The position numbers and the translations under genes were made by a program. Shown piece by piece: positions 2,240-22,323 of a stretch of DNA of 64,000 nt. The first letter of the stretch is position 1. Each line of letters starts with the position of its first letter. The stretch covers positions 186,001-250,000 of the forward strand of contig NZ_VWNC01000003.1 of the NCBI RefSeq assembly GCF_013387455.1, written 5' to 3'. The notes beneath the pieces are model-generated. The model did not search any database, had not been told where the DNA came from, and worked only from the letters and a program-made list of their open reading frames with translations. This stretch comes from Mariprofundus sp. NF (GTDB taxonomy: Bacteria; Pseudomonadota; Zetaproteobacteria; Mariprofundales; Mariprofundaceae).

Positions 2240-4522
2240 ATGAAAGAGACAGAAAATATCGAGTCAAATCAGGATGAGAGCAAAGATAGTGATCTGAAGC
2301 GCTTAAAAGCACTTCTTCTGGCTGATGAATCCGAACAACTGGCTGAAATTCAGGAGCACCTGCATAACCCTGAGCTGCAAGCAGCTGATGTAGGGCGTGT
2401 CCTGCACCGTGCTGTAACCATCAATCAGCAGCATGCACCTGATGCCTTGAGAGATGCTTTGACGCCGACCGTTGAATCAGCGCTCTACAGTTCGGTGCGT
2501 AGCAACCCTGATCGACTGGGAGAGGCGCTCTTCCCTGTCATGGCGCCCGCCATAAGAAAATCGATTGTATCGATCATGAACAGCATGGTGCAGTCACTCA
2601 ATCAGATGCTGGAGCACTCCTTCACCCTTAAAGGGCTGAAGTGGCGACTGGAAGCACTGCAGAGCGGCCGCTCCTTCGCAGAGATTGTCATGCTGCATAC
2701 GCTGGCCTACCGTGTTGAACAGCTCTTCCTTATTCACAAAGAGAGTGGCCTGCTGCTGCAACATATCAGTTTTGATGAGGCGGCCAACAAGGATGCCGAC
2801 CTGGTCTCCAGTATGCTGACCGCAATTCAGGATTTTGTGCGCGACTCCTTTCAGGTGGGCGAAAATGACGCCATCGACAAGTTGCGCATCGGCAGCATGG
2901 AAGTGTTTATTGAGGCGGGTTCGAAAGCTGTTATCGCCGCAGTAGTGCGAGGTAATGCCCCAGCTGACTTCCCTGATACCCTGCAACAGAGCAGTGAAGC
3001 CATTCACAAGAAAATGGCAGAGAGTCTGAATACGTTCGATGGTGATGCAGCCCCATTCAGTGCTGTCCGTCCTGAACTGGATGGATGTCTGCTATCAAAA
3101 TCAGCCACGACCGGCTCAGGCTCGAACACGAAGGCGATTCTGGCTCTCTCAACGGCAGCAATAGCGTTGATTGGCTGGTTATCCTGGGGAGCATATCAAT
3201 CGCACCGACAAACAGTTCTTGTCGAAGCTCTGGATGCAGTACCCGGCATGGTTGTCATCCGCTCCGCCGATCATGATGGTGCCCTGCAGATTTCCGGCCT
3301 GCGTGATCCACTGGCTGATGCACCGGAGCCTCTGCTGCATGAGCACCAGTTTTCCGATGAAGATGTGCAGATGTTGTGGAGTCCCTATCAATCACTGGAG
3401 CCTGCACTGATCATCAAACGGGCCAACCAACTACTGGCACCGACAGATGAAACCGAACTTCTATTAGATGGCAGTGAGCTTGTGATTTCAGGCATTGCCA
3501 CACAAGCCTGGCTTGAGCGAGCCATTCAGATGATTCCAGCCATGGCTGGCATCACCGGCTTGCGCAGCGATCAACTGATCCTCACTGACTCACCGGACTA
3601 CCTCCTGCAGCTTGCCCGCAAAAGGCTCGCCCCACCGGCAACGGTTCAGCTGAATATGCAGGGGCACTCACTGCTGGCTAAGGGCAGTGCACACCATGAG
3701 TGGATTGTCACTGCTGCATCCGCCGTCAAGAAGATTCCCGGCATCAGCGCTTATGATGACTCTGCAGTGATTGATCTGGACTCTGACAGCTACCTTCTGG
3801 CTGAAGCCAGGAGGATTTTGGCACCACCATCATCAGTACGACTGAAGGTAAAACATGCTGAACTATTTGCCAGCGGCAGAGCCACCTCGAAATGGATTAG
3901 CAATGCCAAACAACAGGCTCATGCAATCAGTGGCATCAAGGGCTTTGACACCAGCAAACTGAAAACCCTCGCTACAGACCCGAGTGACAGACAGCTTCTA
4001 CAGCAGGCCAAACGTACCCTTCTGCCACCGGATAGCGTCACCTTAAGTGTAGAGAGGCGCATCCTGAGTGTAACGGGCATCGCCTCTTCAGTCTGGGTCA
4101 AACAGGCCATCGAACGCGCCAAGAGTATCAAAGGATTATTGGGTTATGATCAACAAACTTTGGTGGTGGCAGAAACAGCCCTGACAGCACTGAAGAAGAA
4201 GCTAAACCGTGTACAACTAAAATTCAGAGCTGGCAGCAGCCAGCTGGAGAGTGGCGAAGAGCAGATGATTTCGCAGCTGGCACGGGCGCTGAAAAAGCAG
4301 CGCGCTCTCATGCAGATGGCGCAGGCACATATCGAGATCACAGGCTATTCAGGACTACTGACCAATAGGGCTCATGCTCTGGCGCTGAGCCGTGCAAAAC
4401 ACGTTACAACCCTGCTGACAGCGCAAGGTGTTCCTTCGGCATGGATTCGCACCCACGGACAGAAAGAGCGCTCATCTGAATGGGCGGTAGATCTTGACCT
4501 GAAGTGGCAGCCACTGCCTTGA
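2240..4522 (+). CDS. Membrane protein with cytoplasmic sensor-like domain, BON-like repeats and OmpA-like C-terminus
   Basis: This 760-residue protein has one clear membrane helix at about 299-319 and no signal peptide, so the N-terminal 300 residues should be cytoplasmic. Within them, about 159-270 has an alternating strand/helix pattern (EQLFLIHKESGLLLQHISF, then LTAIQDFVRDSF) that resembles longin/roadblock-type sensor folds; this is inference. After the membrane helix come four repeats of about 70 residues (roughly 397-685), each with a LAPP- or LLPP-like start and a SG-A--W motif, resembling BON domains. The end (about 655-755) resembles OmpA/MotB peptidoglycan-binding domains. It overlaps the downstream GTPase gene, which suggests translational coupling. 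The likely role is to connect the envelope to the GTPase. Confidence 0.8.
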   Translation: MKETENIESNQDESKDSDLKRLKALLLADESEQLAEIQEHLHNPELQAADVGRVLHRAVTINQQHAPDALRDALTPTVESALYSSVRSNPDRLGEALFPVMAPAIRKSIVSIMNSMVQSLNQMLEHSFTLKGLKWRLEALQSGRSFAEIVMLHTLAYRVEQLFLIHKESGLLLQHISFDEAANKDADLVSSMLTAIQDFVRDSFQVGENDAIDKLRIGSMEVFIEAGSKAVIAAVVRGNAPADFPDTLQQSSEAIHKKMAESLNTFDGDAAPFSAVRPELDGCLLSKSATTGSGSNTKAILALSTAAIALIGWLSWGAYQSHRQTVLVEALDAVPGMVVIRSADHDGALQISGLRDPLADAPEPLLHEHQFSDEDVQMLWSPYQSLEPALIIKRANQLLAPTDETELLLDGSELVISGIATQAWLERAIQMIPAMAGITGLRSDQLILTDSPDYLLQLARKRLAPPATVQLNMQGHSLLAKGSAHHEWIVTAASAVKKIPGISAYDDSAVIDLDSDSYLLAEARRILAPPSSVRLKVKHAELFASGRATSKWISNAKQQAHAISGIKGFDTSKLKTLATDPSDRQLLQQAKRTLLPPDSVTLSVERRILSVTGIASSVWVKQAIERAKSIKGLLGYDQQTLVVAETALTALKKKLNRVQLKFRAGSSQLESGEEQMISQLARALKKQRALMQMAQAHIEITGYSGLLTNRAHALALSRAKHVTTLLTAQGVPSAWIRTHGQKERSSEWAVDLDLKWQPLP

Positions 4523-5022
4523 GCCTGACGCTGCAGAAAAAGGTATGCCTGCTGGGCGCTTTTGCGGTGGGTAAAACCAGTCTGGTCAGCCGTTTTGTCA
4601 AAGGCATCTTCTCCGAAAAGTATCTCTCCACTATGGGTGTGAAAATCGACAGGAAAAACCTGCAGATCGGTGATGTCACCATCAATATGATGCTGTGGGA
4701 TATTCATGGTGAAGAGAGCAATAAAAAGGTGCCTGCAGCATACATGCGTGGCACTGCCGCCTATCTGCTTGTAGTCGATGGCACGCGTAAGAGCACCATC
4801 GCTGCAGCCTGCGAGTTGCATGAGCGCATACGCACAGAAGCAGGTGATATCCCCTTTGTTGTTCTACTGAATAAATGCGATCTACAGGATGAGTGGCAAC
4901 TCGCCGAGAGTGATATGGAGGCCATGCAGGAGAAGGGTTGGGAATGTTTTTTGACCAGTGCCTGCTCCGGCCAGAATGTTGATGCCGCATTCAGCAGACT
5001 GGCTGAGAAACTGCTGCCATGA
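4504..5022 (+). CDS. Ras/Rab-like small GTPase
   Basis: A 172-residue single-domain small GTPase. Visible motifs are the P-loop GAFAVGKTS (18-26), a switch I Thr (T43), G3 as WDIHGEE (D66, G69), G4 NKCD (123-126) and G5 TSA (151-153). The residue matching the catalytic Gln61 of Ras is Glu (E70), so hydrolysis may be slow or depend on a partner. There is no membrane segment or lipidation signal. The start is a GTG at 4504 overlapping the upstream gene by 19 bases; a TTG at 4519, overlapping the upstream stop, is an alternative. The cyclase gene overlaps its stop codon. The Ras-superfamily call is firm; the partner and process are unknown. Confidence 0.92.
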   Translation: MAATALSLTLQKKVCLLGAFAVGKTSLVSRFVKGIFSEKYLSTMGVKIDRKNLQIGDVTINMMLWDIHGEESNKKVPAAYMRGTAAYLLVVDGTRKSTIAAACELHERIRTEAGDIPFVVLLNKCDLQDEWQLAESDMEAMQEKGWECFLTSACSGQNVDAAFSRLAEKLLP

Positions 5023-6035
5023 CATCGCCGGAGATGCCGGATGTTCTCTTCTCTTATTTAGCTGATCTCTATATCAATCACGCTTCGCCGGCATGGATAA
5101 AATTGGATTCTGATTGCCGCGCCGTGGCCGATTCGGGCGGCGACTGGCCGCGTTATCTCGCCGAACCCGTACTCAAGCCCGGTAGTGAACTGGAGGAGCG
5201 TTTCCTCGTTCTTTGCGGGCAATCCTTTGATCAACCGTTTGTTCTGCCACAAATAGAGCTACAAGATGGGCAGTACACAGATATCCACCATCTGCTTATC
5301 GATGGCGTCTCATGGCTACTCTTTCTTGATGTCAGCGAGCAGGTTAATACGCAACAGCTGCAGCAACAGAATGCCAATGAACTCAGTCTGCTTAAAGACC
5401 GGCAGAAGCAGACCCTGGATCGTTATATGGGTTCCACCATTGCCGAGTTGAGTGTCGGAGGGAGATTAACATTTAATGCCTCTGGCGAACGCCGCAACAT
5501 CACAACCATGTTTATCGATCTGCGCAGCTTTACCATTTTCAATGAGGCTTATGATCCCCAGCATGTAATGGATGTACTCAATCAGTACATGACGAAGATG
5601 ATCCCCCCTATTCTGGATGAGCATGGCCTGATCGATAAGATAACCGGTGATGGTGCAATGACTGTGTTTGGTGTCCAGCATAGAGAGGCGCCTGCTGAGA
5701 GTGCGCTTCGGGCTGCTTATAAAATTCAACGTGATGTCGCCGCCTTAAATCGGTCGCGCCGTGAGCAGGGGAAATACGTGATGGAGGTAGGTATTGGCAT
5801 TGCCAGCGGTGAAGCGGTACTGGGCATTATTGGTGCCCATGATCGACGCGCATTTACAGCTATCGGACCGCATGTGAATCTGGCAGCAAGGCTTGAGAGC
5901 GTCGCCAAAGGCGGAGAGATTCTGGTCGACAGCCTCACCTTTAAGGCCACTTCGCATCTGATCAGCAGTCATCAGAAAATGGAGATCGAACTTAAAGGCA
6001 TTGGCCTCACACCGGTTTACAACCTGCAATTTTGA
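5019..6035 (+). CDS. Class III adenylate cyclase with N-terminal PAS-like region
   Basis: A 338-residue soluble protein predicted to make cyclic AMP. The catalytic domain (about 155-335) has metal-binding D167 and D211, the purine-selecting pair K207 and T280, and the transition-state residues N287 and R291 in a VNLAARLE motif. All six catalytic positions are therefore filled, and the K/T pair favours ATP over GTP. Residues 1-130 look like a PAS-type fold with LLIDGVSWLLFLDVSE near the end, followed by a short coiled-coil linker. The start overlaps the GTPase stop by four bases, so it is probably translated with it. Control by the GTPase is inferred from this coupling only. Confidence 0.92.
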   Translation: MTSPEMPDVLFSYLADLYINHASPAWIKLDSDCRAVADSGGDWPRYLAEPVLKPGSELEERFLVLCGQSFDQPFVLPQIELQDGQYTDIHHLLIDGVSWLLFLDVSEQVNTQQLQQQNANELSLLKDRQKQTLDRYMGSTIAELSVGGRLTFNASGERRNITTMFIDLRSFTIFNEAYDPQHVMDVLNQYMTKMIPPILDEHGLIDKITGDGAMTVFGVQHREAPAESALRAAYKIQRDVAALNRSRREQGKYVMEVGIGIASGEAVLGIIGAHDRRAFTAIGPHVNLAARLESVAKGGEILVDSLTFKATSHLISSHQKMEIELKGIGLTPVYNLQF

Positions 6036-7914: not shown

Positions 7915-8283
7915 ATGATACTGATTGTTGACGATAATGATGCGATTCGAGAGATGCAGGTTGCTGTGCTTGAATCAGCCAATTATTCGGTACGTGAAGC
8001 GGCCAATGGCACCCATGCACTGAGCCTTGCTGAAGAGAGCAGACCTCAACTGGTATTGATGGATATCACCATGCCCGGCATGACCGGTTATCAGGTGCTC
8101 GACCGTCTGCGCGAGAAATATGGCAATGATCTGCCTGTTGTCATGGTCAGCGCCCTGCCTGAAGATGAAGAGCGAGATATTGCACTGGCCAGAGGGGCAA
8201 CCGACTACATCAGCAAACCCTTTGATATCCCTTCAGTATTGAACTGTGTAAAACACTTTCTTCCTGACGCAAAAGCTGCATGA
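7915..8283 (+). CDS. Single-domain response regulator (CheY-like receiver)
   Basis: A 122-residue stand-alone receiver with the acidic pair in VDDND, the phospho-acceptor Asp in LMDITMPG (about D50) and the conserved Lys in YISKPFD (about K100). There is no output domain. The Shine-Dalgarno AAAGGG lies just upstream. It overlaps the hybrid kinase at 8280 by four bases (ATGA), so the two are translationally coupled and this receiver is a likely phosphotransfer partner. Confidence 0.95.
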   Translation: MILIVDDNDAIREMQVAVLESANYSVREAANGTHALSLAEESRPQLVLMDITMPGMTGYQVLDRLREKYGNDLPVVMVSALPEDEERDIALARGATDYISKPFDIPSVLNCVKHFLPDAKAA

Positions 8284-11200
8284 GCCCCCACTCCTTTAGA
8301 CTGGCGATCATCGGTGCAGGTCGCGGCGGCCTGGCGTTGCTCAATGTGCTGCAGGATGACAGCAATATCGAAGTCGTTGCCATCTCAGATGCTCGCCCTG
8401 ATGCACCGGCCCTGACGCTGGCAACATCACTCGCCATCCCGATCTGCCAAAGCATCGAAAAGATTCCCGATTGCGACATGGTGATCAATGTGACCGGCTC
8501 CGCTGAAGTCTCAGAGATGCTGCGTCAGCACTTCTCTTCTGATGTGGAGATCATGGAGGGCAAGGCTGCACACTTCTTCTATGATCAGGTTGGCAAACGT
8601 AAAAAAGAGAAGGAGCAGGTGGAGCGCATGCTCACCGAGTTTGAAAAGCTCAATCGTCTTGGCCGGCGGCTTAATACCACCAACAGCCTGACCCAGATGC
8701 TTAAGCTGGTATTACGGGAGGCACTTTTAGTCACCAACTCACCTGCCGGAACAATCTCTCTGTATAACAAATCAACCAGGGAGCTATCGCTTCACACCTC
8801 ATCAGGTTTTAGCGAAGGTTTTGAGAAACAGGAGCCCTGGCTTGTCAGAACAGGCGGCTTGACTGAGCGCATTCTCAACGAGCGCAAACCGTTCGTGGTT
8901 CCCAATGTGTCCGAATCCGATGAATTTGCGCTCAACATCATTTTAGCCAATGAGGGTGTCGAGGCGCTGGTGGCGCTGCCATTGGCACTCGGTGACGAGA
9001 TCGTGGGCATACTCTATGTGAACGATTTCTCGCCGCGCAACTACGATGATAATCAGGTTACCATTCTTGATCTACTGGGAAATCAGGCGTCACATGCGAT
9101 TCAGAAGGCGCGCCTGTTCCAGAGTATTGAAGATGAAAAACGTGAACTTAAGTCACTGAACGAACATCTGGAAACCCGCATCATGGAGCGCACCGGTGAT
9201 CTGACTAAAACAAACGAGGAGCTGATTCGTGCTAACCAGGCGAAATCACAGTTTCTCAGCAACATGTCACACGAACTGCGCACCCCGCTCACCAGCATCA
9301 ACGGCTTCTCGGAGTTTCTGCTCGATGGTTTTGTCGGGGAACTCAATGAGGCACAGTCCAAGTATCTCAAGAATATTAACCTCTCAGGCAAACATCTTCT
9401 TGAGTTGATCAACGGCATCCTCGACCTCTCCAAAATCGAGGCTGGAAAAATGAGCCTTAAACTTGAAAAGATCAATGTGACAACACTGCTGGATGAGATC
9501 ATCCTCGTACTTGAGGGCTACGCGACAAAAGAAAATGTATCTCTGAAACTACAATGTGACAGCAATATCCCCGGCATCTTCCTTGATCGCACCAAGTTCA
9601 AGCAGATTCTCTACAATATCTGCTCCAATGCGATCAAGTTCAGCCCTGAAGGAAGTGAAGTATCCATTGTAGTCCACTACGACAAAACCTCCTATATCAG
9701 CGGCCAGGAGGAGGAGGAGTACACCACCCTTTATGTCTCCGTAACCGACCAGGGCATTGGTATCTCCCCGGAAGATCAGAAGATTATTTTCAATCCGTTT
9801 GAACAGGCCGATGGCTCTCACTCGCGCAATTTTGAAGGAACCGGATTGGGCTTAACACTCACCAAGCAGCTGGTTGAAATGCATGGCGGCGCTATCGATG
9901 TTGAGAGCACTCCCGGCAAAGGAAGCTGCTTCACCTTCACGCTACCTGCCCAGACAGAGGCCTCCAGTGCATTTGATATCTCCAAACTCTCTGAAGCCAC
10001 CGGTGAATATATCGCACAATTTCAGCAGCAACCTCACACTGTTGCTGTCGATGCGCCGTTGATTCTGGTGGTTGATGATGATGCGCACTCTCTGGAGATC
10101 AGCACCCTCTATCTCTCCGATGCCGGTTACAGGGTCTGCCACGCTATGAATGGAGAGGACGCACTTGATGTGGCCCGTAGAAAACGCCCCTTCCTGATCC
10201 TGCTGGATGTGATGATGCCGGGTAAAGATGGCTGGGAGGTACTGCAGGAGCTGAAGCTCGATGCTGAGACCTCTGCTATTCCGGTGATTATGTGTACGGT
10301 CTCCGAAAATGAGGAGCTGGGTGTTGCACTTGGCGCCACCGACTATCTCTCCAAACCGATTGATCGGGAGCAGCTTGCCAACAAACTCAAGACACTGGGC
10401 AAAGGGCTACATAGTCGTCATAACTCACTACATATACTGGCCATTGACGATGATCAGAGCACCCGTGAACTCTATGCTGCCACCCTCTCGGCTCAGGGTT
10501 ATAAGGTACATACAGCTGCCAGTGGTCAGGAGGGCTTAAATCTGGCCGAAAGCATGGCGCCGGATATTATCCTGCTGGATCTGATGATGCCCGGCATGGA
10601 TGGCTTTGAGGTAGCGGAAAAGCTGAAGATACACCCGCACACACAGGATATCCCGATCATTGTGGTGACAGCCAAAGAGTTAACGGTTGCTGAGCGCATG
10701 CGCCTGGTGGGCCATATCGAAGACTGTGTTAGCAAAGAGAGCTTTTCCAAAGAGCATCTGCTGCAGGAGATTCAGCAGTTTGAGACCCTCTACCCGCATC
10801 AGGCGGGGCTCAAAGACCCGATCTCCGGCCTGCTTAACCATCGCTATTTCCAGATTCGACTTGGCCAGGAGCTCTCTCGCTCAGCTCGCAATGGTCAGAA
10901 CCTCGCCTGCGTACTCATTGATCTGGATGGTTTTATCCGCTTCAGCAAACATGCCAGCGAAGCATATGTGCATGCCGCCCTGCGCAAGGTGGGTAATTTT
11001 TTCATGAACAACCTCAGAGGCTCGGACATCGCCACCCGTCACCGTGTTGATGAGTTTGCCATGATCCTGACGCAAACCGAACTTGAAGGGGCGCTGCTTG
11101 TGGTTAAACGATTGAAAAATCTAATTGAGGCCTACCCGTTTCCCGGTGAAGAGGTGCTGGGAGAGAAAGGCATAACCGCCTGTGCCGCAATTTCCATGTT

Positions 11201-11324
11201 TCCCGATGATGGTGAAGCCGCTGAAACACAGCTGCAGCATTGCCATGAGATGATTCAGTTGGGCAAATCAGAGGGCGGCAACAAACTATGCTATCGCCAA
11301 TATGGCAAAGTGGTCATGTTATGA
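8280..11324 (+). CDS. Hybrid histidine kinase: Rossmann-like, GAF, kinase, two receivers, degenerate GGDEF
   Basis: A 1014-residue cytoplasmic signalling protein. Residues 1-100 look like a nucleotide-binding Rossmann fold (GAGRGG at 12-17, ending in DMVINVTGSAEV). A GAF-type domain follows (about 140-285), then a coiled-coil linker, a HisKA domain with H331 in SHELRTPLTSINGF, and a HATPase domain with DQGIGI and GTGLGL. Two receivers carry phospho-acceptors D643 and D767. The last 180 residues resemble a GGDEF domain, but the active-site motif reads RVDEF (922-926), so diguanylate cyclase activity is unlikely. The gene is coupled to receivers on both sides by four-base overlaps. The Rossmann fusion is unusual; its ligand could be NAD(P), unproven. 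Confidence 0.93.
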   Translation: MSPHSFRLAIIGAGRGGLALLNVLQDDSNIEVVAISDARPDAPALTLATSLAIPICQSIEKIPDCDMVINVTGSAEVSEMLRQHFSSDVEIMEGKAAHFFYDQVGKRKKEKEQVERMLTEFEKLNRLGRRLNTTNSLTQMLKLVLREALLVTNSPAGTISLYNKSTRELSLHTSSGFSEGFEKQEPWLVRTGGLTERILNERKPFVVPNVSESDEFALNIILANEGVEALVALPLALGDEIVGILYVNDFSPRNYDDNQVTILDLLGNQASHAIQKARLFQSIEDEKRELKSLNEHLETRIMERTGDLTKTNEELIRANQAKSQFLSNMSHELRTPLTSINGFSEFLLDGFVGELNEAQSKYLKNINLSGKHLLELINGILDLSKIEAGKMSLKLEKINVTTLLDEIILVLEGYATKENVSLKLQCDSNIPGIFLDRTKFKQILYNICSNAIKFSPEGSEVSIVVHYDKTSYISGQEEEEYTTLYVSVTDQGIGISPEDQKIIFNPFEQADGSHSRNFEGTGLGLTLTKQLVEMHGGAIDVESTPGKGSCFTFTLPAQTEASSAFDISKLSEATGEYIAQFQQQPHTVAVDAPLILVVDDDAHSLEISTLYLSDAGYRVCHAMNGEDALDVARRKRPFLILLDVMMPGKDGWEVLQELKLDAETSAIPVIMCTVSENEELGVALGATDYLSKPIDREQLANKLKTLGKGLHSRHNSLHILAIDDDQSTRELYAATLSAQGYKVHTAASGQEGLNLAESMAPDIILLDLMMPGMDGFEVAEKLKIHPHTQDIPIIVVTAKELTVAERMRLVGHIEDCVSKESFSKEHLLQEIQQFETLYPHQAGLKDPISGLLNHRYFQIRLGQELSRSARNGQNLACVLIDLDGFIRFSKHASEAYVHAALRKVGNFFMNNLRGSDIATRHRVDEFAMILTQTELEGALLVVKRLKNLIEAYPFPGEEVLGEKGITACAAISMFPDDGEAAETQLQHCHEMIQLGKSEGGNKLCYRQYGKVVML

Positions 11325-11701
11325 TTGAACTAACAGGAAAAAAAATAGCTGTTGTAGATGATACTGACAGCATACTCATGCTTTTCACTGCCCTGCTGGA
11401 AGCACACAAGGGCACAGCCATCACATTCAACAGCGGCCGAACATTCCTTCAGCAGGTGCAGGAGATATCACCGGATCTGATTCTTCTCGATATTCAAATG
11501 CCGGACCTGGATGGTTATAAGGTGCTTGCGCAGCTCAAAAACCTGCCAGCTACCGCCTCTACCCCTGTCGTAGCACTGACTGCCCATGCCATGAGTGGTG
11601 ATAAAGAGCATATCCTTGAGCAGGGATTTTCAGGGTATATCGCCAAACCGGTTGATACACGCGCTTTTCCTAATCAGATCGCCTCCTTTCTGGCAGGTTA
11701 A
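11321..11701 (+). CDS. Single-domain response regulator (receiver)
   Basis: A 126-residue receiver with VDDTD near the N-terminus, phospho-acceptor Asp in LLDIQMPDLDGY and conserved Lys in YIAKPVD. The start is taken at ATG 11321, which overlaps the kinase stop as ATGA; an ATG 33 bases further upstream is less likely. No output domain is present. It belongs to the 7915-13780 signalling operon. Confidence 0.93.
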   Translation: MIELTGKKIAVVDDTDSILMLFTALLEAHKGTAITFNSGRTFLQQVQEISPDLILLDIQMPDLDGYKVLAQLKNLPATASTPVVALTAHAMSGDKEHILEQGFSGYIAKPVDTRAFPNQIASFLAG

Positions 11702-11830: not shown

Positions 11831-13780
11831 TTGCAGTTAAGCCACAACACGCTTAAAGAGAAGCTGACCACAACTATTATTTTCTGGGGCATCGCCTTCC
11901 TGGCTTCGCTTGTGGCACTCTTCTTTCTCTTCTCCGGCACCATTACGGGTTATATCCTTGATGTTGTAGATCAAACTGATCTGCCGGTTGAAACAGCGAT
12001 TGCAACCACTATGGGCTGGATTGCAGTCTTTCTACTGGTCCTGCTGCTGATTGCCGTAAAGGGTCTGCACTACAGCCTGAAAAAGCAGCTGGTTGAACCG
12101 GTAGAAGCGCTGCAGATCGCAGTCGAAAACAGAACCACAACTCAGGATGAGATTGAATCGCTGTTAACCGATCTCCCCTATGAAGCCTCAAGGGTGCTTA
12201 AGCTCTATGATCAAGTGAAACACTCCCACGATGACCTTCGCAGTCGCGTTGTTGATATGATGGAGGCACTTCCCGCCTGTTTCTGGTGGTCACTGGATGG
12301 CAACAGGTATGAGGGTATCTCATCCAAGTCGATCTCCCTGCTCAAGCGGTCAAGCGATGAGATTATTGATCAACCGCTCTGGTCCTGGCTCAACTCCCGT
12401 GCGCAGAGCTCTGGCAACGCTGCGATTCTGATGCAGGCGATCAAACGCAGGGAGGATCGCGTCGATTTTGCCTATCAGGCGGAGATCGATGGCCAGACAC
12501 GCTGGTTCGGTGAATCGGTGACCCTCTGTTACAACAGAGATGGCACGCTGGATATCATGTACGGTATTATCAATGATATCAGCACCCGTAAAAACAAGCA
12601 GCAGGCTGAAGCCGAGCAGCTGGAGCTCTCACAGCGCATGGAGGCCACGGCGACACTGGTCGGCGGCATCGCCCACGAATTCAACAATGCACTGGCGGGC
12701 ATGAACGGTAATATCTTCCTGATTAAACAGTCGACTAAAGATGCAGCTACCCGGCAGCGCATTGGTCGGGTTGAGGCGCTGATTCAGCACTCTGCCACAA
12801 TGATTGAGCAGATGCTGGCTTTTGCCCGTAAAAGCTCCATGCGCCCGAAACCAGTGAATATCGTAGAGTTCCTGAAACACTTCCAACTGGCACTGCAACC
12901 GAAACTGGCCAGCAACATCCACTTCGATCTGCAGTTGAATAGTCTCGATGCAGCAGCTGAAACTGCAACTGTTCAGGCTGATCCGGCCAAGCTGCAGGAG
13001 GCGCTGATGCAGCTGATCAACAATGCCTGTGCAGCCACCGAAGAGATCAGTTTCCCGCAGATTACTATTGATGCAGACAACCTGGATGTTGATGAGAGTT
13101 TCCTGCGCAGATATCCACATGTCTCATCAAGCCATCTGGTGCATATTCAGGTTCGCGATAACGGCTCTGGCATTAGCAAGGAGATCCACAGCAAAATATT
13201 TGAGCCCTTCTTCACCACACGTGAAATCGGCAAAGGTACCGGCCTTGGGCTACCGATGGTGTATGGATATATGCGCCAGCTTGGTGGCTGCCTTGAAGTG
13301 GATAGCCAGCCCGATTGCGGTGCCACCTTCCATATCTATCTGCCCAGAGTGATTGCCGCACCCAAAGCAAACCAACATGCCGACTCCCTGCTCAAAGGTA
13401 ATGGCGAGACAATCCTGGTCATTGATGATGAACACATCTTTCGCGAATCGACCTGTGAGGTACTGCACCGCATGGGTTACAAAACTTTGGATGCCGATAA
13501 CGGCAAAAATGGCATTCATATTTTTGAGCAGTACAGGCATGAGATTCAACTGGTGTTCATGGATATCCTGATGCCCGGCATGACCGGCATTGAAGCCTCA
13601 AGAAAAATAAGAGCGATCAGCCCGACGATACCTATCATATTCCTGACCGGTTATGACCGCACCCAACCACTGGAAACCGAGGTCTACGAAGAGCACTCTG
13701 AACTGATCAATAAACCATTCCGCATCTCGGTTTTGAGTCAGGCGATTCAAAAAGCCCTGAAACAGAGCAGCCAGCATTAA
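11831..13780 (+). CDS. Membrane hybrid histidine kinase with C-terminal receiver
   Basis: A 649-residue protein with two N-terminal membrane helices (about 14-38 and 55-78) enclosing only a short external loop, so it probably senses through the cytoplasmic PAS-like region (about 135-255). The kinase core has H282 in [12 protein letters not shown], the NtrB-like form of the H-box, with N-box and DNGSG and GTGLGLPM G-boxes. The receiver has D578 in [11 protein letters not shown]. Translation most likely starts at TTG 11831, since GAGGAG at 11822-11827 is well placed. The 129-base gap upstream suggests possible separate expression from the first three operon genes. Confidence 0.93.
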
Positions 13781-20022: not shown

Positions 20023-22323
20023 TCATTCTACGGATTGAAGTTGATCTCGACCGTTTTCCTTCGAGTTATAAAGCGATTTATCAACATTTCTTAATGTGCT
20101 CTGCAAGGATTCCTCTTTAGAAAAAGCCCCTACACCTGCGCTAAGGGTGATCTTTCCAACAATAGGAAACGAATGGTTTCTAACTTTTTGGAGCACTTTA
20201 TCAGCAAGACTTTTAGCAGCGGTGATACCTGTATTTGGACAAACAATCAGGAACTCCTCCCCTCCCCATCTTCCTACACAATCGGTAATTCTGACGTTTT
20301 GTTTAATAACATGGGCCAGTTCGACCAACACCGAATCACCCACCATATGTCCATAGGTATCATTGATGGTTTTAAACAGATCTATATCCATAAGAATAAT
20401 GGACGATTCAACGCCATAGCGATCCAGACTCGCCTTATTCAGCAGTAACATTTCATCCGTTTTCACTCGATTATAGAGACCTGTCAATTTATCCGTCACA
20501 GATAAAGTCTCAAGCTCTGAATTTAACATTCTTAATTTTGAGTAGTGATAAAAGAAGGCAACGGTCAAAACAAACAACACCGCCAAGATCTTCCAAAGAA
20601 GACTATAATCAAAAGCTACTTCTTGCTTAATAGATACCCATTTATTGAAGATGGCTTGCAACTCCACCTCACTGATATTACTCACCAAAACCTCAAAAAC
20701 ATCTCGAAGCTGCGGCTGATCACTGCGGGTTCCGATAGCCAGCTTCACGCCTTCATCAAGGCGTGAAGAGACCTTAAGAACACCGGTAAAATCTTTCTGT
20801 ATTGAATTGGCTATAACCATTAAATTATCGATATATCCAAACAGCTCACCACTTTCAACGCGCCTCAGGCCATCTGAAATCGAATCAACATCAATAATGT
20901 TAATGCTATCAAATTTAGCCCTAAGTGTTTCAGCGATCGCATAACCTTTAACAATTCCAAGTTTCTTATCCTTCACTTCATCGATATTACTGATAAAAAA
21001 TGTATCTGTTTTTGTGGCCATGACGATGGGAAGGTCAATATATGCCGATGTGAAATCCATGAATTTTTCACGCTCGGGTGTCGATGAGGCCAGAGAAAAA
21101 ATATCACATTCACGTTTTTCTGCTTTGGCGATCGATTCTTGCCAGCTCTGCGTTTCAACCAAACGGACAGGAACAGGAAGATGTTTCTCAAAAGTGGCAA
21201 AGACATCCGCAGCAATTCCAATATGCTTTCCGTCGTGGATACTCTCAAATGGCATCCAATCAGGATCAACACACATGGTGATCTCCTTCTTTTCTTGCAG
21301 GTATAGCTTCTGCTTGTCCGTGAACTTTACACCAAGGCCAAATTTACGAAGAGCTTCCTCAAACATAAAATCACCCAGCTCCTGATCCTGTTGTAACAAT
21401 CCACTATACTGGAGTTGATCCACCGCCCGTAAGCTCAAATCTTTATTGGTTGCTCCAATTTCAAAAAAATCCAGAAGCATCATCTCTCTGGTAACTTTGG
21501 CTTCAAATTGCAGAGCCTCTAAACTTTTTCGTTTTGAGTATTTATCGAAAATAACTGAAATAGTTTCATCGGGATGGGAAAGGGCATAATTCCAACCTCG
21601 GTTGGAAGCATCAATAAATTTCTGCGTTCTATCCGGGTGATTTAATGCTTCAGAGTATGAGGTGAACACATTGACTGCACTCATCACGAAACCATAGTCA
21701 GCAGGGTCAATGATGTTGTACTCGATATGTTGCCGATTCAGTTCATAAAGTTGATTTGTCCTGAATACAGTCACTGCATCGACCTTATGCTGAATGAAAT
21801 CATTCATATCAAAGGTATGATCTTTGAATACCGTGTTTTTTCTATTTACAAAAAAATGATTCAGCATCAAAGCCAATGAGCTATATTTTAATTCATTGCT
21901 GGTACCCATGATTGTCTTGCCGATAAGATCATTGGGAGAATCAATCTCTTTGGATGCAACAATAACAAGGGGTGACTGCTGAAAATATGTCGCCAACAGG
22001 ATAATGGGTTCAAGTTTTCCATTATTGATGACAACACTAGAATTATGAATGCCATAATTGGCTTTTTGTGAAAGCACATTCTCAACCGGATCATCACCTG
22101 TCTCGTATTCGCGCAGTTCCACATCAAGACCAACATCACTATAGAACCCTTTTTCTCTGGCCATAATAAAACCGGCATATTCGAACTGATACTTCCACTC
22201 AAGCTGTAATGAAACTTTTTCCAGAGGCAGTGCTGACCCAATCATCGGAGAGAAAAAAATAAACATGATCAGTAAGCATGTCGCGCAAACGATATTCTTT
22301 TGGATGCGTAGAAAATTCATCAT
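20023..22323 (-). CDS. Diguanylate cyclase with two periplasmic binding domains
   Basis: A 766-residue protein with an N-terminal signal or anchor helix, an NMT1/THI5-like binding domain (about 35-265; LEWKYQFEYAGFIMAREKGF), a second SBP_bac_3-like domain (about 344-565; MCVDPDWMPFE, SSTPEREKFMDFTSAY), a membrane helix (about 578-596) and a GGDEF domain. The active site GGEEF is at 687-691 and an RxxD inhibitory site is at 678-681, so it should make c-di-GMP with product inhibition. It probably senses two small ligands. The gene is visibly richer in A+T than its neighbours, with many AAA/TTT and ATT codons, and stands alone, so it may have been acquired. Confidence 0.92.
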   Translation of the reverse strand: MMNFLRIQKNIVCATCLLIMFIFFSPMIGSALPLEKVSLQLEWKYQFEYAGFIMAREKGFYSDVGLDVELREYETGDDPVENVLSQKANYGIHNSSVVINNGKLEPIILLATYFQQSPLVIVASKEIDSPNDLIGKTIMGTSNELKYSSLALMLNHFFVNRKNTVFKDHTFDMNDFIQHKVDAVTVFRTNQLYELNRQHIEYNIIDPADYGFVMSAVNVFTSYSEALNHPDRTQKFIDASNRGWNYALSHPDETISVIFDKYSKRKSLEALQFEAKVTREMMLLDFFEIGATNKDLSLRAVDQLQYSGLLQQDQELGDFMFEEALRKFGLGVKFTDKQKLYLQEKKEITMCVDPDWMPFESIHDGKHIGIAADVFATFEKHLPVPVRLVETQSWQESIAKAEKRECDIFSLASSTPEREKFMDFTSAYIDLPIVMATKTDTFFISNIDEVKDKKLGIVKGYAIAETLRAKFDSINIIDVDSISDGLRRVESGELFGYIDNLMVIANSIQKDFTGVLKVSSRLDEGVKLAIGTRSDQPQLRDVFEVLVSNISEVELQAIFNKWVSIKQEVAFDYSLLWKILAVLFVLTVAFFYHYSKLRMLNSELETLSVTDKLTGLYNRVKTDEMLLLNKASLDRYGVESSIILMDIDLFKTINDTYGHMVGDSVLVELAHVIKQNVRITDCVGRWGGEEFLIVCPNTGITAAKSLADKVLQKVRNHSFPIVGKITLSAGVGAFSKEESLQSTLRNVDKSLYNSKENGRDQLQSVE

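Follow-up and report, generated by a model that had tools for sequence, protein, structure and literature searches.

A hybrid kinase between two single receivers

We analyzed a window of 64,000 nucleotides from the marine, iron-oxidizing zetaproteobacterium Mariprofundus sp. NF (contig NZ_VWNC01000003.1, positions 186,001 to 250,000), and in particular a gene on its forward (+) strand, at window positions 8280-11324, that encodes a hybrid histidine kinase of 1014 amino acids and begins with ATG. An earlier reading, made from the sequence alone, had described this open reading frame (ORF) as a GAF-kinase-receiver-receiver-GGDEF protein with RVDEF in the last domain, and both the exact coordinates and the Pfam domains agree with it. 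The protein starts with a Rossmann domain of the nicotinamide adenine dinucleotide (NAD) type (residues 5-93, 8292..8558), which we recognized from an AlphaFold2 model, matches in the PDB, and conservation. It is followed by a helix (residues 94-133, 8559..8678) and a GAF domain (residues 135-275, 8682..9104; Pfam GAF_2, E = 2e-18). Next come HisKA (residues 321-389, 9240..9446; Pfam, 4e-22), with the H-box SHELRTP at residues 330-336, and HATPase_c (residues 436-558, 9585..9953; Pfam, 2e-29), with an N box and GTGLGL. Pfam finds two receiver stretches (9e-48), and motif patterns place the phospho-acceptor of receiver 1 (10062..10388) in LLDVMMP and that of receiver 2 (10440..10769, limits approximate) in LLDLMMP. 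The protein ends in a domain with the GGDEF fold (residues 846-1002, 10815..11285; Pfam, 9e-21, and alignment). All of these features are on the + strand, and the parts expected of a hybrid sensor histidine kinase are present: HisKA, HATPase, a receiver, the H-box, the N and G boxes, and the phospho-acceptor aspartate.

To compare this layout across genomes, we used an alignment of 19 distinct hybrids: 10 from Zetaproteobacteria, 3 from metagenome-assembled genomes (MAGs) of Nitrospirae, 1 from a deltaproteobacterial MAG, and 5 from the phylum of N. moscoviensis. Carriers of orthologues include M. ferrooxydans PV-1 and Mariprofundus sp. KV. As the orthologues keep the domain order, we ruled out that the hybrid ORF is a chance frame, a mis-joined frame, or an assembly fusion. 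The H-box, N-box, and GTGLGL patterns are each found in 18/19 hybrids; all three are absent from L215, which also has an atypical GGSVGG loop. By pattern, 15 hybrids have two receiver motifs, 3 have one, and 1 has none. The sequence-only reading had proposed searching for the same architecture elsewhere: the layout recurs in other phyla, but all of the best 25 of 178 NCBIfam matches to the whole protein fall below their own cut-offs.

The hybrid gene lies between two genes for single-domain receivers (REC) on the same strand, one at 7915..8283 (Pfam Response_reg, 2e-29), which is the first gene of the unit, and one at 11321..11701 (Response_reg, 1e-24). For the latter, an ORF start is listed at 11288, probably too far upstream, and we prefer 11321. 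The stop of the upstream receiver gene overlaps the start of the hybrid gene (ATGA), and the start of the downstream receiver gene overlaps the hybrid's stop (also ATGA). Because of these overlaps on both sides, REC-hybrid-REC looks like one translationally coupled unit. A single receiver resembling the one in the window is immediately upstream of the hybrid in 10/10 distinct zetaproteobacterial hybrids (10/19 of all hybrids), and a receiver is immediately downstream in 16/19, 6 of which are not zetaproteobacterial. The downstream receiver is absent for hybrids L098, L214, and L215; upstream of L098 and L215 is a longer gene that contains a receiver.

In the GGDEF-like domain of the window protein, RVDEF (residues 922-926) replaces GG[DE]EF, the active-site motif of diguanylate cyclases. 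The sequence-only reading had proposed looking for an RxxD site in this domain, and there is one: the I-site RGSD (residues 913-916) sits five residues ahead of RVDEF. The same combination holds across the family, as GG[DE]EF is intact in 0/19 distinct hybrids and RxxD is kept in 19/19. Also, by eye, the ND...GH..GD stretch of active GGDEF domains is altered in the hybrids. Loss of the active-site motif with retention of the RxxD I-site is what would be expected of a degenerate-GGDEF receptor like PopA. The tail is predicted to be inactive as a cyclase, and it is possibly a receptor for cyclic di-GMP (c-di-GMP).

The Rossmann domain and its relatives

The GAGRGG motif that the sequence-only reading took for a nucleotide-binding N-terminus is at residues 12-17. 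An AlphaFold2 model of the N-terminal domain, made with an alignment of 34 relatives, has the Rossmann order of strands and helices (predicted local distance difference test, or pLDDT, of 89.8; predicted template modeling score, or pTM, of 0.81). The modeled fold contains the motif of a cofactor pocket, so the prediction fared well on this point. The motif glycines are G12, G14, and G17; D37 ends strand 2; and NVTG is at residues 70-73. This combination of a beta-alpha-beta fold with GxGxxG and an acidic residue at the end of strand 2 is that of the NAD(P)-binding Rossmann superfamily, in which the acidic residue marks a preference for NAD(H). In a model of residues 1-290 (pLDDT 84.4, pTM 0.60), the single helix 94-133 (block pLDDT 67-84) spans from the final strand of the Rossmann domain to the GAF domain, from which a second helix (residues 257-289) exits.

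The N-terminus matches Pfam Rossmann families only below their thresholds (GFO_IDH_MocA, 21.0 vs. 24 bits; DapB_N, 20.0 vs. 25.6 bits). The GFO/IDH/MocA cut-off (PF01408) is passed by some relatives, such as L088 (28.7 bits), L228 (31.3 bits), and L251 (36.7 bits). Pfam gives no match to the C-terminal catalytic domain of GFO/IDH/MocA proteins in the window protein, and the GAF domain stands in its place. The best structural match in VIA is an acylating acetaldehyde dehydrogenase (4lrs_B, Z = 12.1, 93 residues, 1.9 A), and a Rex-family repressor also matches (3wg9_D, Z = 9.9, 84 residues, 2.1 A). The top PDB matches in Foldseek are mostly NAD(P)-dependent enzymes, of which the first is the aldolase-dehydrogenase 1nvm (7e-5); a Rex-family repressor is at rank 30. 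A profile comparison to PDB sequences gives a similar set: acetaldehyde dehydrogenases (7e-7 and weaker), Rex (0.0012), DapB (0.0017 and 0.0019), and PurN (0.0096). A viral fold library returned mainly GAF-domain or uncharacterized proteins and added nothing. A viral or phage origin was rejected, as none of 5 pattern matches is a relative.

This Rossmann domain of about 110 residues is a recurrent N-terminal input module, which a reading of this one sequence could not show. We collected 244 redundant frames and reduced them at 70% identity to 82 distinct domains from Zetaproteobacteria, Nitrospirota, Deltaproteobacteria, Bacillota, and a few other groups. Behind these domains are at least five types of output: GGDEF (17), methyl-accepting chemotaxis protein or MCP (17), hybrid kinase (11), HisKA kinase (9), PAS-sigma-54 (5), sigma-54 (5), PAS-GGDEF (5), HisKA_3 kinase (4), GAF-GGDEF (3), and none or cut (6). 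Before clustering, 11/244 frames had no output domain (cut frames, sub-threshold kinases, and stand-alone proteins). The classes were assigned with our own phmmer references; Pfam, which we ran on the window protein and 16 other members, confirmed the output types on representatives. At E = 0.001, Pfam reports no Rossmann family in L002, L043, L090, L097, or L247, and the assignment there is from our own profile. In some members the Rossmann domain is the sole input that Pfam recognizes, and it is fused directly to GGDEF, MCP, HisKA_3, or sigma-54. The window's own genome encodes two further proteins with this N-terminus, L002 (Rossmann-middle region-GGDEF) and L003 (Rossmann-GGDEF), both with an intact GG[DE]EF.

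The module has a match in 30 of 41 genomes (the window genome and 40 relatives, E = 1e-3). Within the window's phylum, profile matches occur in 105/299 genomes at E = 1e-6, a threshold that lets in some enzymes. At E = 1e-15, the counts are 24/100 in the phylum of N. moscoviensis, 60/199 in the phylum of Tumebacillus, and 33/118 in the phylum of the deltaproteobacterial MAG; loci from this last search stand outside the 82 domains. A scan of named genomes for the pattern I[VIL]GAGRGGxA gave 349 relatives, of which 80 were kept. Most of these are from Nitrospira, and the others are from Deltaproteobacteria, Rokubacteria, MAGs of Bacteroidetes, Tumebacillus, Aneurinibacillus, and a Tepidanaerobacteraceae MAG.

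The dinucleotide-binding motif is conserved across the family. Of the three glycines in GxGxxG, the first is present in all 82 domains, the second in 80, and the third in 79, and strand 2 ends in D or E in 81/82. If we set aside the 24 domains that came from the GAGRGG-pattern scan, the corresponding counts out of 58 are 58, 56, and 55 for the glycines and 57 for the acidic residue, although some bias in these values remains because profile searches also favor consensus residues.

In the members that we inspected, no catalytic half follows the Rossmann domain, which rules out an ordinary oxidoreductase that was fused by accident. We also inspected 12 borderline or stand-alone places. Three of these are enzymes (by eye, acylating acetaldehyde dehydrogenases), with profile scores of 33-41 bits. 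The other nine score 60-96 bits and comprise two GGDEF fusions, one MCP fusion, five frames of 150-209 residues that stand alone, and one that runs off the end of its contig.

A tree of the 82 domains (112 columns) is poorly resolved, with 41/79 inner branches open. The output classes cluster on it, with 14 changes for six groups vs. a mean of 49 after shuffling. On starred branches, sigma-54 requires at least 3 changes and MCP at least 2, which is only a hint that the module has been reused across outputs.

In the phylum of the deltaproteobacterial MAG L095, three long kinase frames (L251, L254, and L257) have two Rossmann domains in tandem at the N-terminus; in L251, these are followed by PAS-PAS-HisKA-HATPase (Pfam). 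Five apparently stand-alone frames of 150-209 residues (L269, L273, L274, L275, and L276) carry the Rossmann domain without an output and might be free subunits or partners. In L247 (1222-2811), a LuxR-type helix-turn-helix (Pfam) precedes Rossmann-GAF-GGDEF, so this could be a DNA-binding diguanylate cyclase with the same sensor, and L250 has a similar N-terminal extension. Finally, 15 of the 18 Bacillota loci listed (L228-L243) have a Rossmann-MCP frame of about 280-340 residues, possibly a cytosolic redox chemoreceptor; the MCP domain was confirmed with Pfam in L228 only.

Candidate ligands and a proposed mechanism

To look for functional links, we compared six metabolic genes to 80 loci with tblastn. 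NAD(P)-related neighbors were found at 10/80 loci, in three conserved neighborhoods. First, genes for malate dehydrogenase (MDH) and NuoF flank the Rossmann-sigma-54 gene in L104, L113, and L129; of the 6 loci of this type, these are the 3 whose titles give Nitrospirota or Nitrospirae. Second, pntA lies after the genes for the Rossmann-HisKA_3 protein and a response regulator in L095, L100, and L114, as does pntB where the contig reaches that far. These are 3 of the 5 Rossmann-HisKA_3 loci not titled Nitrospirota (of 22 of this type). In L107, which also has a HisKA_3 output and a non-Nitrospirota title, the contig stops about 650 bases past the response regulator, so pntA would be out of view. 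Third, a dehydrogenase of the Glu/Leu/Phe/Val type (in our reading, a leucine dehydrogenase) and a lipoamide dehydrogenase follow the Rossmann-PAS-PAS-sigma-54 gene in 4/4 loci (L097, L130, L151, and L159). Ten of the neighboring genes were checked with Pfam, and all of these matches pass; nine were also checked with NCBIfam, where some matches for nuoF and pntB are below the cut-off and the best match for the Glu/Leu/Phe/Val-type neighbor in L151 is a tryptophan dehydrogenase model, also below its cut-off. These conserved neighborhoods are a functional hint that points to NAD(P)(H).

We propose that the window protein is a hybrid kinase with an NAD(H)-responsive Rossmann input to a phosphorelay and a PopA-like, c-di-GMP-binding tail, and we consider the case for and against this to be about evenly balanced. 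On this view, the hybrid histidine kinase would be soluble, and it would receive its input through an NAD-type Rossmann domain that has no enzyme attached. The occupancy of this domain by NAD(H), or the redox state of the cofactor, would alter the pitch or the dimer packing of the helix at residues 94-133, which we propose as a signal-transmission helix. The signal would then pass through the GAF domain and the second helix to set the kinase activity, with the GAF domain contributing a second input. Phosphate would flow from HisKA to the two receivers in cis, to the two flanking single receivers, or to both. The terminal GGDEF domain would not make c-di-GMP, but would bind it at the RxxD site and gate the output of the kinase. 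In this scheme, the domain order, the fold, the motifs, the reuse of the module, and the operon are computed, and we infer the ligand, the binding of c-di-GMP, the direction of control, and the path of the phosphate. That a redox cofactor could be sensed had been suggested in the sequence-only reading; the fold, the NAD-type signature across the 82 domains, and the neighborhoods with NAD(P)(H) genes at a minority of loci are in its favor, and NAD(H) itself is the ligand that we infer from them. Similarly, the suggestion that the last domain binds c-di-GMP rather than making it agrees with the motif counts for the 19 hybrids as to the lost active site, and as to binding it stays a prediction.

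The same Rossmann module would drive other outputs in other proteins. More broadly, one mobile module may read the NAD(H) redox state into kinases, c-di-GMP synthesis, chemotaxis, and sigma-54-dependent transcription (including a BkdR-like activator), with the hybrid integrating NAD redox and c-di-GMP. We offer this broader proposal tentatively, as something a little short of an even bet.

Several observations weigh against these proposals. Rossmann folds also bind S-adenosylmethionine (SAM), coenzyme A (CoA), flavin adenine dinucleotide (FAD), and nucleotides, and because VIA also ranks formyltransferases and Mur ligases at Z of about 10, the ligand cannot be told from the fold alone. The AlphaFold2 model of the N-terminal domain is of a monomer. 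The second glycine of the motif is absent from hybrid L215 and from L003, the paralogue in the same genome, and the latter slightly lowers our confidence in the proposal for the window protein. The last glycine is absent from three other domains and the strand-2 acid from one. None of the six metabolic genes was found at the other 70/80 loci, which include the 5 zetaproteobacterial hybrids and the Nitrospira-titled loci. Also, the test was not blind, as the six genes were picked after being spotted by eye at some of the loci. For these two reasons, we view the neighborhoods as supporting evidence and not as general evidence. The three neighborhoods are conserved synteny within three lineages rather than independent events. 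Finally, RxxD is found in all five of the active GGDEF domains that we aligned, so it is not unique to receptors.

If the Rossmann domain instead bound another nucleotide-like or metabolite ligand, such as acyl-CoA, SAM, or a nucleotide, then the kinase would report on a metabolite and not on redox. Its nearest relatives in both sequence and fold, the acylating acetaldehyde dehydrogenases, do handle CoA as well as NAD, and the Bacilli members adjoin genes that resemble a branched-chain keto acid pathway, so that an acyl-CoA or a keto acid is a plausible inducer. This seems unlikely to us given the near-universal acidic residue on strand 2, the unseen second half of the dehydrogenases, and the mdh, nuoF, and pntAB neighbors, which have NAD(P)(H) in common and not CoA. 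Another explanation is that the domain is a non-binding relic that serves in dimerization or docking while GAF or PAS domains do the sensing. Indeed, GAF or PAS sensor domains follow it in many members, the linker helix could form a helix dimer, and two of the 82 domains lack the second glycine of the motif, as noted above for L003. We consider a relic quite improbable, both because the binding-site residues are near-invariant over 82 distinct domains and because of the members in which no other input is recognized by Pfam.

The tail could likewise be only a structural cap (or a GTP binder) and not a receiver of c-di-GMP. GGDEF domains that have lost their active sites can act as GTP or protein interaction modules, and the presence of RxxD in the active cyclases fits with this. 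On the other hand, RxxD outlasts GG[DE]EF without exception, whether the hybrid is from Zetaproteobacteria, the phylum Nitrospirota, or a deltaproteobacterial MAG. We regard a cap as a possibility to be taken seriously, if a somewhat doubtful one, and prefer the c-di-GMP-binding tail.

Related systems and other genes in the window

Of the bacterial regulators that sense NADH directly, the best known is Rex, a winged-helix DNA-binding protein with a C-terminal Rossmann domain. Like Rex, the module has a GxGxxG Rossmann domain with a strand-2 acid in a regulatory rather than a catalytic role, and NCBIfam Rex models match members such as L093 weakly, below the cut-off (1.4e-5). Unlike in Rex, the module is N-terminal and lies ahead of kinases, cyclases, receptors, or AAA+ activators. 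Pfam gives no winged-helix match in the window protein, whose first Rossmann strand begins at residue 6. The NAD domain of DmpF-type acylating acetaldehyde dehydrogenases is the module's best neighbor by both sequence profile and structure, but their catalytic second domain is the part that the inspected members lack.

The REC-REC-GGDEF tail resembles PleD (NCBIfam model, E = 4e-70, 236.7 bits vs. a cut-off of 474) and PopA, whose degenerate GGDEF domain has RxxD and binds c-di-GMP. In contrast to these proteins, here a kinase with Rossmann and GAF inputs precedes the tail in the same polypeptide, with single receivers next door. We presume that the layout of receivers and hybrid parallels that of PleD/PopA and DivK in Caulobacter; of these, the match to PleD alone was computed.

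The four Bacilli members with two PAS domains and sigma-54 (L097, L130, L151, and L159) appear to be BkdR-like, because of this domain content, a Fis-type helix-turn-helix, and bkd-like neighbors; Pfam finds all of these domains in L097. Two PAS/PAC domains are described for BkdR of B. thuringiensis (PMC4428206) and two PAS domains for Bacillus BkdR (PMC3734008), while the passages on BkdR in these papers do not name a Rossmann domain. In a survey of 490 sigma-54 activators of Clostridiales, the regulatory domains given in an "including" list do not include Rossmann (PMC6615313, passage on domains). AxDGC2, RmcA, and DgcO are described, in the passages concerned, as flavin or heme sensors that couple redox or oxygen to c-di-GMP (PMC8846402, PMC12540587). 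Their cofactor is FAD or heme, and it sits in a PAS or globin domain, as opposed to the Rossmann domain here.

The word Rossmann does not occur in the main text of a 2022 census of c-di-GMP sensing (PMC8846402) or of PMC1592074, PMC12540587, PMC4428206, PMC3734008, or PMC6615313, and occurs once in PMC7098655, as the name of a cited author. Among the papers that our searches of an open-access library listed, which leaves most subscription journals outside, no title or start of an abstract describes a family of sensors that share a Rossmann input module, and none of these papers puts the proposal to the test. These N-termini may already be labeled as NAD(P)-binding in automated databases such as InterPro. 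The parts of the hybrid are of known kinds, and there is a good chance that the Rossmann module deserves a family name of its own. Cells need to couple their central redox state to behavior. If our proposal is correct, then several large bacterial groups would meet this need in a general way, with a small, soluble domain of the NAD type set ahead of kinases, cyclases, chemoreceptors, and sigma-54 activators. Such a domain would also supply an input for regulators that are now annotated mainly by their PAS or kinase domains.

Promoter-like sites (2 vs. 4.5 expected) and terminator-like sites (8 vs. 4.3 expected) were counted, and neither was used in our reading. Downstream of the receiver operon, after a gap, is another hybrid kinase (11831-13780). 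Upstream, overlapping genes on the + strand (2240-6035) encode an OmpA-like protein, what we read by eye as a small GTPase, and a class III adenylate/guanylate cyclase; in Mariprofundus sp. KV (L086), genes in this order also lie close to the hybrid. Finally, a gene on the - strand (20023-22323) appears, from its translation, to join solute-binding regions of the periplasmic kind to a GGDEF domain whose GGEEF is intact.

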